A program made the position numbers and the translations under genes. Under the pieces are notes generated by a model. It saw only the letters and a program-made list of their open reading frames with translations. It made no database searches and was not told the origin of the DNA. 32,116 nucleotides of DNA from the IMG/VR virus record IMGVR_UViG_3300034061_000754, positions 1-32,116 of that record; one strand, written 5' to 3'. This DNA comes from a virus. This document shows positions 1 to 32,116 of the stretch, one piece after another; position 1 is the stretch's first letter; each line of letters opens with the position of its first letter.

Positions 1-31
1 CGGCTCGCTTCGGCGAGCCGTTGTCCTTTTT
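1..31 (+). terminator. UUCG-loop intrinsic terminator at the contig joint
   Basis: An 8-bp stem (1-8 with 13-20) closes on a TTCG loop at 9-12, giving the very stable C(UUCG)G tetraloop, and is followed by a T-rich run ending in six T. This is a standard Rho-independent terminator. The same 31 bases end the window (32086-32116). It lies just past the gene ending at 32058, so on a circular map it ends the operon that starts near 30,660 and isolates it from the nuclease gene downstream. Confidence 0.85.
1..31. repeat. 31-bp direct terminal repeat, left copy
   Basis: Bases 1-31 are identical to 32086-32116. The likeliest cause is assembly of a circular or circularly permuted molecule broken inside this terminator, leaving a unique length of 32,085 bp. 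A true short terminal repeat on a linear virion DNA cannot be excluded from sequence alone. Confidence 0.8.
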
Positions 32-590: not shown

Positions 591-618
591 TATGATCCCT
601 CCGCGCGGCAGGAGCCGC
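591..618 (+). promoter_or_regulatory. Early promoter P1 with the GCGGCAGGAGCCGC dyad
   Basis: A -10-like TATGAT (591-596) is followed after 8 nt by GCGGCAGGAGCCGC (605-618), here extended to a 6-bp stem CGCGGC/GCCGCG around an AGGA loop. Transcription would start about at the dyad. The same arrangement occurs at 1419-1446 and 30660-30686. No consensus -35 is visible. The site lies right after the nuclease gene and 16 nt before the next start codon. Confidence 0.6.
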
Positions 619-634
619 GGAAACGGAGACGCAA

Positions 635-1345
635 ATGACATCGAGCGAGCTGGCTGATTTCGTGGCGCGGGTGCGCCGTCTGTTCGGCGGTCCTATGGAC
701 GAGGAGCTCTTCGCGCTCGCGAAGGAGCGCATCGCCGGACTCAAGGCGAAGCCGTGCAACGAGAGCCTCGATGAGTACGCTCTCGCGCATGGCGGCCCGA
801 GGTCGCGGTTCATCCCCGCGAAGTTCCTCGAGGTCTACACGCGGAGGACGAGCGACCAGGACTCCCGCGCCGACGCGACCGAGCGCGAGGCGCGGAAGCG
901 CGCCGCGGCGATCGGAGCCGACCTCGAGGCTGAGAAGATCAGGAAGGAATGGGAAGGAATCAGGCGGGAGGTCGCGGAAGCGGATCCCGCCAGACGTTCG
1001 ATCGCAGTCGGAGTGCTTCGGCGAGCTGGGTGGCTTGTGACCGATTCCGATGCCGCAGGCTGGCGCGAGACGATGCTGCTCGCCGTCCGCGACCTGATGC
1101 GCGGTGAGCCTGTCATGGTGCGCGACAAGCGGACGGGGGAATGGACGGTCTCCGTCTCGGCGGTCGAGTTCTGGACGGAGCTAGTTCCGAAGCCGTCAGG
1201 AATCGCTCAGGCGGCGTCGGAGCCGTGGAACGCCGTCCAGACTGGCTCAGCGCTCGGACGGCGCACAGGCGAAGCACGGCGGCTTTCCGAGGCTCCTGCG
1301 CTGGCGCGCGTCGTCGCGGCAGACCTTGACGAGATACCGTTCTAA
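635..1345 (+). CDS. Early protein with an SSB-like C-terminal tail (possible replication or recombination accessory)
   Basis: A 236-aa soluble protein I do not recognise as a family. The N-terminal ~90 residues look globular, residues ~65-125 are highly charged and helical, and a compact middle follows. The striking feature is the last nine residues, AADLDEIPF, which match the acidic D-x-x-I-P-F tip that bacterial SSB uses to recruit replication and repair proteins. No OB-fold SSB is evident in it. It is the first gene after promoter P1. A helicase-loader or host-replisome-recruiting role would fit but is inference. Alternatively it is a divergent ssDNA-binding protein. Confidence 0.75.
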   Translation: MTSSELADFVARVRRLFGGPMDEELFALAKERIAGLKAKPCNESLDEYALAHGGPRSRFIPAKFLEVYTRRTSDQDSRADATEREARKRAAAIGADLEAEKIRKEWEGIRREVAEADPARRSIAVGVLRRAGWLVTDSDAAGWRETMLLAVRDLMRGEPVMVRDKRTGEWTVSVSAVEFWTELVPKPSGIAQAASEPWNAVQTGSALGRRTGEARRLSEAPALARVVAADLDEIPF

Positions 1346-1424
1346 TTCCGAGAAACAGGATTTACAGGAAATATCTCGGATTCTTGGGAAACCCTGCAAG
1401 CGGTGGAATCGGATTCCGTAGAAT
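1346..1424 (+). promoter_or_regulatory. Operator-like cluster in front of promoter P2
   Basis: Three symmetric or repeated elements occupy this gap. TCCGAGA (1347-1353) is inverted as TCTCGGA (1374-1380). A tandem ACAGGA pair lies between those arms. A 13-bp palindrome GGAATC-G-GATTCC (1405-1417) sits directly against the -10-like TAGAAT (1419-1424), where bound protein would block RNA polymerase. This is the layout of a repressor- or activator-controlled promoter; the regulator is unknown. Confidence 0.5.
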
Positions 1425-1446
1425 GGTCGCACGCGGCAGGAGCCGC
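1419..1446 (+). promoter_or_regulatory. Early promoter P2 with the GCGGCAGGAGCCGC dyad
   Basis: A -10-like TAGAAT (1419-1424) is followed after 8 nt by the exact 14-mer GCGGCAGGAGCCGC (1433-1446), as at the other two copies. The dyad is expected at or next to the transcription start and lies 18 nt before the ATG at 1465. It should drive the coupled genes from 1465 to 4309. Confidence 0.6.
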
Positions 1447-1464
1447 AGAAAGAGAGACGAGCAC

Positions 1465-1680
1465 ATGAGCAGATGGCCTACGGACGCGACTCGGATCGGC
1501 ACGCAGTTCTGCGACGCGATGGAGCGCGCGATCAATCACGGGAACCTCGAGGACGCGCGGCTCTGGTCGCGCCAGATCCAAGCGCTCATCACTGCGCACG
1601 GCAATTACCGAGGCGAGCCGATCCGCGAGCGCTGGCTCGACCTGACCGAGCGCCTCTATTCCGAAAGGAGCGCCGCTTGA
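1465..1680 (+). CDS. Small phage protein of unknown function, first gene of operon P2
   Basis: A 71-aa protein, hydrophilic and mostly helical, with no motif I recognise. ATG 1465 is chosen because it follows promoter P2 and a GA-rich leader (AGAGAGACGAGC); the longer frame upstream would run through the promoter and operator. It ends TTGA, giving a 4-base overlap with the next gene, so the two are probably translationally coupled. Confidence 0.7.
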   Translation: MSRWPTDATRIGTQFCDAMERAINHGNLEDARLWSRQIQALITAHGNYRGEPIRERWLDLTERLYSERSAA

Positions 1681-2915: not shown

Positions 2916-3220
2916 CCGATCTAGCCTCATACATGGCAAGCACGCCGACCTTCTCGACCCTGCTCTTCCTCGGAGGTCCGCTCCACGGATCACGATACGA
3001 GATGCCGGACACGACGCGCGAGCTCGTCATCAGGAGCGACCGCTCCCGCACATGGTCGCCGAACCTCTGGGATCGCTACACGCGGCGCACGTTCACGCGG
3101 ATCGCAGGCGACGAGCAGCCAGAGGTCGCTCACCTCTTCGCGCACGAGACCTGGCTGGACGAGGAGATCAGCGCGTCGCATCTTGCCGAGCACGACTGGA
3201 AGCCAAAGGAGGCGCTATGA
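2912..3220 (+). CDS. Hypothetical phage protein with a GGPLHG motif
   Basis: A 102-aa protein carrying LGGPLHGSRYEMP near residues 19-32. This resembles the 'GGPxDG' segment common in short uncharacterised phage and actinobacterial proteins. Aromatic and basic residues are frequent between 45 and 65. It overlaps neighbours by 4 bp on each side. Function unknown; conservation of the motif suggests a real small fold. Confidence 0.7.
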   Translation: MTDLASYMASTPTFSTLLFLGGPLHGSRYEMPDTTRELVIRSDRSRTWSPNLWDRYTRRTFTRIAGDEQPEVAHLFAHETWLDEEISASHLAEHDWKPKEAL

Positions 3221-3423
3221 AGGTCGGCTCGCTGTTTGCCGGCATCGGTGGCTTCGACCTCGGCTTTGAGCGCGCGGGATTCGAGGTCACATGGTGCGTC
3301 GAGTGGGACAAGAACGCGCAGGCTGTCCTCCGCAAGCGGTTCCCGAATGCGCAGGTCGGGAACGCCGTCACCGTCAACGTCGCCGAGTGGATCGCTAGGA
3401 GGACGATGGCATGGCTGACCTGA
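3217..3423 (+). pseudogene. Internally deleted C5-cytosine methyltransferase: motif I joined to motif X
   Basis: A 68-aa open frame. Residues ~4-43 match the start of Dcm-type enzymes: SLFAGIGGFDLGF is the SAM-binding motif I, followed by the acidic strand CVEWD. Residues ~47-62 (VGNAVTVNVAEWIARR) match motif X, which normally lies ~250 or more residues later. Everything between is absent, including the catalytic PC (IV), ENV (VI), QRRER (VIII) and the target recognition domain. It cannot methylate DNA alone. The frame is intact and has a strong AAAGGAGG site, so it is probably translated. The end also holds the ribosome-binding site of the next gene, which may explain its retention. Confidence 0.85.
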
Positions 3424-30654: not shown

Positions 30655-30672
30655 GGCGATATACTAGACGCA
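30655..30672 (-). promoter_or_regulatory. Candidate divergent promoter for the minus-strand gene
   Basis: On the minus strand TAGTAT (30666-30661) resembles a -10 box and lies 6 nt before the start codon at 30654, predicting a transcript that begins at or next to the AUG. It overlaps the + strand -10-like TATACT (30660-30665), so both directions share the same DNA and would exclude each other. Confidence 0.4.
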
Positions 30673-30686
30673 GCGGCAGGAGCCGC
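30660..30686 (+). promoter_or_regulatory. Early promoter P3 with the GCGGCAGGAGCCGC dyad
   Basis: TATACT (30660-30665) is followed after 7 nt by GCGGCAGGAGCCGC (30673-30686), the third exact copy of the dyad at the same offset from a -10-like box. It should start the operon 30722-32058. The dyad also lies just upstream of the divergent minus-strand promoter, so a protein bound here could control both. Confidence 0.6.
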
Positions 30687-30689
30687 AAC

Positions 30690-30708
30690 GCCTCGCATGG
30701 AGCGAGGC
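30690..30708 (+). promoter_or_regulatory. Second leader hairpin before the ribosome-binding site
   Basis: GCCTCGC (30690-30696) and GCGAGGC (30702-30708) form a 7-bp stem with a 5-nt loop, directly before AGAAGGAG and the ATG at 30722. With the dyad hairpin at 30673-30686, the leader has two adjacent stems, likely affecting translation start or mRNA lifetime. Confidence 0.5.
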
Positions 30709-30721
30709 AGAAGGAGACATC

Positions 30722-30823
30722 ATGCCAGAATGGGATATCACCCCAGTCGTGTTCCTCGCGGTACTCGCGGTGGTTCATTTCTTTCCGCACGGTCTGAGCC
30801 TGAAGGGAGGTCGCGATGAGTGA
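30722..30823 (+). CDS. 33-aa membrane peptide, first gene of operon P3
   Basis: AAGGAG (30711-30716) lies 5 nt before ATG 30722. The peptide has a hydrophobic span at residues ~7-22 (TPVVFLAVLAVVHFFP) and a basic C-terminus. It overlaps the next gene's start by 8 bp. First-position tiny membrane proteins in early operons may act in superinfection exclusion, but nothing here shows it. Confidence 0.6.
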   Translation: MPEWDITPVVFLAVLAVVHFFPHGLSLKGGRDE

Positions 30824-31691
30824 TCTCGTCAAGGCCGGCACCCAGGCGCTCGAGGCGTACATCGCCGCTGGGGACATCGAGCGGCTCGACAGCGGCCAGC
30901 GGATCGCGCTCTACCGCGCGGTCTGCGACTCGCTCGGACTCAACCCGCTCACGCAGCCGTTTCAGTACCTGCGCTTGAGCGGGAAGACGGTCCTCTACGC
31001 GACCAAGAGCTGCACCGAGCAGCTGCGCCAGATCCACGGCGTATCGGTCACCTCGATGCAGAAGGAGGTCTTCGGCGAAATCTTGGTCGTCACGGTCGCA
31101 GTCCGCGAGAGGGGTGGACGCGAGGACATCGCGACCGGCTCGGTCTGCCTCAAGGGTTTGGGAGGCGAGAACCTGTCGAACGCATACATGAAGGCAGAGA
31201 CGAAGGCCAAGCGCCGCGCGACGCTCTCGATCTGCGGACTGGCGGTTCTCGACGAGAGCGAGACGGATTCGATCGCGGGAGCCGAGCGCCGCTCGGTCGA
31301 TGATCTGCACGGACGGCAGGAAACGGCTCAGGCGGCCGCTCCGGCTCCGTCCGAGCCGAAGGCGAAGGCGAAGCGCGGCGGGAAGCATGAAGCGCCTGCG
31401 GCGGCTCCTGCGGCGCTTCCAGAGGCGGTCGAGGCCGAGGTGGTTGCCGCGGAACCGCGGAGGCTCCTGATCCACCCTGACGCGGGGATCTCGGTCGTCG
31501 CGAACGCCGCCGGCCGCAAGGTCTGGAGGATCGACCAGGACGGGATCGACCGACCGCTCGCGATCCTTGACGAGAAGCTCGCAGGCATGGTCGAGGCGGT
31601 CGGAGCCTTCGGCGGGATCTGCTCGGTCGCCGTCGAGGAGCGCGGCGGGAAGCTGATCGTGACCTCCGTCGAGGAGGACCGCGATGCCTGA
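30816..31691 (+). CDS. Phage recombination protein candidate (ssDNA-annealing type)
   Basis: A 291-aa protein. Residues ~1-160 contain a pattern common in phage early regions: CDSLGLNPLTQPFQYLRLSGKTVLYATKSCTEQLR, VRERGGREDIATGSV and MKAETKAKRRATLSICGL. I recall this as a RecT-like/ssDNA-annealing-type family, often unnamed. A Pro/Ala/Lys linker (~185-215) leads to a small beta domain (~220-290). GGGAGG precedes ATG 30816. With the SNase and resolvase-like nucleases it could form a recombination set. Family certainty is moderate. Confidence 0.6.
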   Translation: MSDLVKAGTQALEAYIAAGDIERLDSGQRIALYRAVCDSLGLNPLTQPFQYLRLSGKTVLYATKSCTEQLRQIHGVSVTSMQKEVFGEILVVTVAVRERGGREDIATGSVCLKGLGGENLSNAYMKAETKAKRRATLSICGLAVLDESETDSIAGAERRSVDDLHGRQETAQAAAPAPSEPKAKAKRGGKHEAPAAAPAALPEAVEAEVVAAEPRRLLIHPDAGISVVANAAGRKVWRIDQDGIDRPLAILDEKLAGMVEAVGAFGGICSVAVEERGGKLIVTSVEEDRDA

Positions 31692-32085: not shown

Positions 32086-32116
32086 CGGCTCGCTTCGGCG
32101 AGCCGTTGTCCTTTTT
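32086..32116. repeat. 31-bp direct terminal repeat, right copy, with the UUCG terminator
   Basis: Identical to bases 1-31. The stem is 32086-32093 with 32098-32105 and the TTCG loop 32094-32097. The copy lies 27 bp after the gene ending at 32058 and ends within the T-run, as expected if an assembler closed the same circle here. Confidence 0.85.

Follow-up and report, generated by a model that had tools for sequence, protein, structure and literature searches.

The closest parallels of the RNA element that we describe here are found in cluster K mycobacteriophages and in phage Mu. The Start-Associated Sequences of cluster K (SAS/ESAS) were described in 2011 and have been suspected to play a role in translation initiation, with little support, according to the same authors, for mRNA hairpins in ESAS (PMC3203893); in the literature that we found, no mechanism has been assigned to SAS since 2011. 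In the com/mom system of phage Mu, an RNA-binding protein of the phage recognises the loop motif of a hairpin that precedes the start codon and activates translation (PMC6483171).

In this study, we followed up a 14-bp dyad that occurs three times in the window, by which we mean the whole stretch of 32,116 nt of viral DNA that was analysed. We propose, with a probability of roughly 0.6, that the dyad belongs to a reusable cis-acting RNA leader element of one uncultured phage family, which acts at translation initiation. The family unit consists of a GC-rich stem of 5-8 bp with a C-G closing pair, an ANGA-type loop, an A-rich spacer, a GGAGA/GAGAC Shine-Dalgarno sequence and the AUG. No description of an ANGA-hairpin leader was found in our searches of the open literature, and the window gave 0 matches in Rfam at the gathering score.

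Results

The window and its early region

The first and the last 31 nt of the window (1-31 and 32086-32116) are identical, which makes it probable that the genome is circular and completely covered, with a length of about 32,085 bp. The repeat itself resembles an intrinsic terminator: a hairpin (CGGCTCGC-TTCG-GCGAGCCG) with T-rich sequence behind it, located where the ends of the putative circle join. The GC content is 63.6%, and genes for terminase, portal, Mu F-like, prohead protease and major capsid proteins were identified (Pfam, PHROGs). The early region spans about 3 kb, from 30.6 kb over the junction to 1.5 kb, and, if the genome is indeed circular, holds all three copies of the 14-mer. 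Relatives of the 291-aa early protein are encoded at 24 IMG/VR loci; the protein itself is without a Pfam or PHROGs match and has three distant matches, two of them in Campylobacter phages. Peptides of 30-34 aa resembling the small hydrophobic ORF at 30722-30823 precede the same operon in several relatives. Elsewhere in the window, the ORF at 3217-3423 (68 aa) matches a C-5 cytosine DNA methylase, of which it covers positions 1-44 only, and represents a truncated methylase. The palindrome GATACG-N4-CGTATC at 179-194, upstream of a nuclease gene, is found once each in the relatives L284, L285, L286 and L288, shortly upstream of the orthologue of gene 635-1345, and is a candidate for a true DNA operator.

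When cultured relatives were sought, gene 635-1345 had no match in the phage collection, and none was found beyond a portal at about 23-30% identity. A search for a host through prophages returned two MAG contigs only, in a Rhodobacteraceae and a Coriobacteriia bin. Another contig of the Rhodobacteraceae bin carries a unit that is almost the same as one found in the phage family; as the contigs in this bin look like phage contigs that were binned along, no host is claimed.

Three copies of a 14-mer at early promoters

The original prediction had placed exact copies of GCGGCAGGAGCCGC at 605-618, 1433-1446 and 30673-30686, in each case with a -10-like hexamer 7-8 nt upstream. We found all three on the plus strand and 0 copies on the minus strand of the window, and the hexamers TATGAT, TAGAAT and TATACT end 8, 8 and 7 nt before them (Table 1); a strong -35 box is present at none of the three promoters. 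That each copy precedes an early gene also stood, with corrections: copy 2 leads into the 71-aa gene, and copy 3 is followed by a second hairpin with the loop AUGGA and then by a 33-aa ORF whose end runs into the next gene. Leader 3 has its first hairpin 35 nt from the AUG, outside the start-proximal spacing of the family, and this hairpin is probably 5'-terminal in the transcript.

Table 1. Features of the three early leaders in the window (hairpin loops in brackets; R1, covariance model of the family unit)
Feature	Position	Strand	Basis or remark
Leader 1, -10-like hexamer TATGAT	591..596	+	sequence; kept in L124 and L125
Leader 1, hairpin CGCGGC[AGGA]GCCGCG	604..619	+	R1: 32 bits
Leader 1, Shine-Dalgarno GGAG (625-628) and ATG (635-637)	625..637	+	stem to ATG, 15 nt
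Early gene, 236 aa, function unknown, behind leader 1	635..1345	+	orthologues in 18 relatives anchor the comparison
Leader 2, -10-like hexamer TAGAAT	1419..1424	+	sequence
Leader 2, hairpin GCGGC[AGGA]GCCGC	1433..1446	+	R1: 33.3 bits
Leader 2, Shine-Dalgarno GAGAGA (1452-1457) and ATG (1465-1467)	1452..1467	+	
Early gene, 71 aa, behind leader 2	1465..1680	+	
Leader 3, -10-like hexamer TATACT	30660..30665	+	sequence
Leader 3, hairpin 1 GCGGC[AGGA]GCCGC	30673..30686	+	R1: 10.7 bits, hairpin part only
Leader 3, hairpin 2, start-proximal, GCCTCGC[ATGGA]GCGAGGC	30690..30708	+	R1: 25.6 bits
Leader 3, Shine-Dalgarno AGGAGA (30712-30717) and ATG (30722-30724)	30712..30724	+	
Hydrophobic ORF, 33 aa, behind leader 3, overlaps next gene	30722..30823	+	
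Early gene, 291 aa, function unknown, second ORF of operon 3	30816..31691	+	

Among the 71 distinct perfect 5-4-5 dyads in the window, GCGGCAGGAGCCGC alone reaches three copies, and none of 300 Markov-1 simulated windows contained any 5-4-5 dyad in three copies; when up to 3 mismatches are allowed, the window shows no enrichment of the 14-mer (20 matches versus 14.3 expected). As a signature across phages the exact 14-mer was rejected: its IMG/VR matches outside the family sit in other contexts, and the few of these with a TANNNT hexamer upstream are not leaders of the ANGA-hairpin type.

Orthologous leaders in related phages

In the closest relative, L124 (88% identity in the 30816-31691 protein), all three leaders are present again. 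Tandem TTGGACCCTAG repeats, which the window lacks, stand there directly before the leader 1 promoter, upstream of 12508. In L125 (69% identity in the same protein), a hairpin is found at each orthologous leader, with altered stems in two of the three: GCTGC[AGGA]GCAGC, GCGGC[AGGA]GCCGC and GGCGT[AGGAA]ACGCC, the last being the orthologue of the window hairpin at 30673-30686. The start-proximal hairpin of leader 3 likewise has an orthologue in L125, TCGCCGC[ATGGA]GCGGCGA. The dyad, whose recurrence at orthologous promoters was the check attached to the original prediction, is present at orthologous sites, mostly with another sequence and with the same structure.

This variation bears directly on the possibility, raised together with the first description of the dyad, that a phage repressor or activator binds it as an operator or stoperator in the DNA of early promoters. 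Perfect palindromic arms and three copies of one sequence, each of them at a promoter of the window, are what such a site would look like. Within one genome, however, all operator sites would be expected to agree in sequence, being set by one DNA-binding protein, and the stems differ within the single genomes L125, L283, L291 and L316, with four different stems in L283 (GCGGC, GCCGTC, CCGGC and GCGGAC) around a loop that stays similar. Together with the sense-only orientation of the loop, the intercistronic copies and the wobble pairs described below, this makes an operator highly improbable.

Covariation of the hairpin stem

An early loop-restricted scan of bulk sequence gave 11 matches versus 10 in shuffles, and we therefore used gene-anchored tests instead. 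Portal relatives (about 55-65% identity) gave access to the early regions of 13 further contigs. The orthologues of gene 635-1345 form a sample that was not selected by loop. An ANGA-type hairpin stands 9-17 nt before the start in 14 of the 19 (12-17 nt with the stem cut at the core helix) and is missing at the chosen start in the other five; the hairpins of L284 and L304 were read from the printed sequence, that of L304 with an alternative start. When the 14 orthologous leaders were aligned (MAFFT, gene-anchored), both sides had changed in five of six pairs, and the covariation score was 0.615 compared with 0.172 in shuffled alignments (0/500) and at most 0.112 for slid helices. RNAalifold, unaided, recovered the same helix in this alignment. 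The same covariation outcome was obtained with 53 units from many genes, which had been preselected as hairpins. The second reading offered by the original prediction, a 5' hairpin with AGGA in its loop, is thus supported by the covariation of its stem.

A similar picture came from an independent scan of 2.9 million viral contigs in IMG/VR that prescribed no more than the loop, its two closing pairs and the AGAAA..GAGAC segment: the three free outer positions also pair in 20 of 25 distinct matches, where about 1.3 would be expected. All 20 paired matches precede a start codon, and their contigs encode homologues of window genes; L326 and L305 lie on one contig, the first unit of which precedes a homologue of gene 635-1345. 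Stems with one G-U wobble outnumber those with one A-C mismatch by 10 to 3, several of each lying outside clear leaders, and by about 9 to 1 after manual reading. Such a G-U excess is expected for RNA, while a DNA palindrome should lack it, which argues against an operator.

Loop consensus

The loop is conserved where the stem is not. In the 14 orthologous leaders all loops are AGGA or A-N-G-A-N, and across the family the loops ACGAU, AGGA, ACGAA, AUGAC, ACGAC, AUGGA, AUGAU, AUGAA, AAGAA, AGGAC, ACGGA and a few more were seen. If these loops behave like GNRA-type loops with an extruded base, each of them may be reducible to A-N-G-A plus at most one base, which would follow position 4 or precede the final A. 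A CsrA/RsmA site was considered, as AGGA and ATGGA fit a GGA-in-loop motif, and was rejected since most loops are without GGA (ACGAT, ACGAA, ATGAC, ACGAC). Loops of the same genome resemble each other above chance (17 of 65 pairs versus 6.4 expected; 0/5000), and stems of the same genome show no likeness above chance. This would fit a trans-acting reader of the loop, but duplication of leaders could also yield it.

Position, orientation and spread

The element occurs several times per genome, on the sense strand only and in the early region only, before unrelated early genes. In 17 early regions we counted 51 ANGA-loop units in start context, compared with 0.95 expected and with 3 for the reverse-complement loop. 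The products encoded downstream of the units fall into more than 30 unrelated groups, and the cassette is therefore portable. In the window, the covariance model R1 finds the three units at 604-631, 1432-1459 and 30691-30719, the next best match reaching 14.4 bits. Of 35 family records, among them the training sequences, 25 gave matches to R1, 77 in all, and 27 more matches came from newer contigs, most of them outside the training set; in phage sequences that total 700 kb and are mostly unrelated, its sole strong match was L009, which is a family member.

The distance from stem to AUG is 12-18 nt across the family units, with a mode of 15-16. A TANNNT hexamer stands 3-14 nt upstream in 31 of 66 units, compared with roughly 10% that we estimate from base composition, and many units are therefore near transcript starts. 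Two-hairpin leaders, which occur in L286 and L287 as well as at 30673 and 30690 in the window, have one hairpin near the -10 hexamer and one near the Shine-Dalgarno sequence. Three of the units in L316 follow the stop codon of the gene before them at a distance of 6-8 nt, and similar cases exist in L291 and L315; these intercistronic copies, which have no promoter, are located between the stop codon and the Shine-Dalgarno sequence. Across the family the constant is therefore the start codon, and the transcription start only often. The initial proposal that the element is set by the transcription start thus holds for the three window copies, but for the family it gives way to the 12-18 nt between stem and AUG.

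These positions also bear on whether the 5'-terminal hairpin does nothing but shield early mRNAs against 5'-end-dependent decay by RppH/RNase E or RNase J, as in ompA and papA, with a loop that is incidental. Stabilisation of mRNAs by 5' hairpins is known (reviewed in PMC3997798), all three window copies begin 7-8 nt past a -10 box, and the upstream hexamers and the promoter-near hairpin of the two-hairpin leaders point in the same direction. Copies 6-8 nt past a stop codon within operons would, however, not be 5'-terminal unless the transcript is processed, and under this explanation the ANGA loop and the distance to the AUG should vary, yet both are conserved; we consider it unlikely. Promoter-proximal and intercistronic copies as well as the constant AUG spacing could also be accounted for by a processing signal, at which an endoribonuclease cuts beside the hairpin and frees early cistrons as mRNAs starting with it. 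However, no candidate nuclease was identified, and a copy at a 5' end made by a promoter needs no cut, so that we regard processing as still less probable than 5' protection alone.

Discussion

Proposed mechanism

We favour a leader element that acts at translation initiation. Structures upstream of the Shine-Dalgarno sequence can strongly alter initiation rates (PMC3936740), and the hairpin, which presumably folds in vivo, would be placed where the mRNA leaves the 30S platform. It might single out early messages so that their initiation is preferred or regulated, and the conserved loop might be the surface that an RNA-binding factor of ribosomal, host or phage origin recognises; for the existence of such a loop-binding partner we would set the odds somewhat short of even. 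A hairpin directly after the promoter would in addition be 5'-terminal and should slow 5'-end-dependent decay, so that an effect on mRNA lifetime may be a second role. A further extension, which we put forward as speculative, is a family-wide translational regulon in which a dedicated trans-acting factor reads the ANGA loop before dozens of unrelated early genes, the loop variants serving as genome-specific addresses. Insulation of the Shine-Dalgarno sequence by local folding was considered as well; its computed accessibility is 0.575 for the native sequence, 0.559 with the hairpin shuffled (p 0.09) and 0.544 with the hairpin deleted, a gain that is too small to carry the explanation, which is only weakly supported.

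Comparison with known systems

Like the hairpin element, the lambdoid boxB of the N-nut sites has a short stem and a loop of 4-5 nt, with a tetraloop core plus one extra base, which varies between genomes; it is GNRA-like, is paired with boxA and acts on transcription elongation, whereas the loop of the hairpin element is ANGA and is positioned on the Shine-Dalgarno sequence. We know of no conserved loop in ompA/papA-type leaders, nor of their repetition in intercistronic gaps. The 5' stem-loops of ompA and papA share with the hairpin element a position ahead of the ribosome-binding site and, where a copy follows a promoter, probably also one at or close to the 5' end of the transcript (PMC3997798).

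Mu com/mom likewise involves a phage hairpin with a loop motif upstream of a start codon, although for our element a loop-binding factor is only proposed. The Mu system differs in having one target, an inhibitory structure and the loop motif CC(N)2-3GAG, and no Com-like or other RNA-binding regulator was found among the window proteins scanned (20 in Pfam, 10 in PHROGs).

SAS are short, stand in one orientation a few nt before the starts of unrelated non-structural genes and contain AGGAG (PMC3203893). The hairpin element, too, is located a few nt from the start, in one orientation and before non-structural genes. SAS, in contrast, are a fixed 13-mer, GGGATAGGAGCCC, with the Shine-Dalgarno sequence inside, whereas the hairpin element has a covarying stem and a separate Shine-Dalgarno sequence. 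Upstream of starts, GGGATAGGAGCCC with at most 2 mismatches occurs 0 times in the window and 11 times in a stretch of TM4, the positive control, and R1 gives no significant match in TM4. Location and portability are thus common to both, while sequence, structure and phage lineage differ. The phage family described here offers a start-associated element with an RNA structure that can be demonstrated by covariation, a defined loop consensus and natural variants, and its covariance model singles out the early regions of this uncultured family from unrelated phage DNA. With a demonstrable RNA structure and loop variants, the idea of a common RNA address for early phage translation therefore becomes testable.
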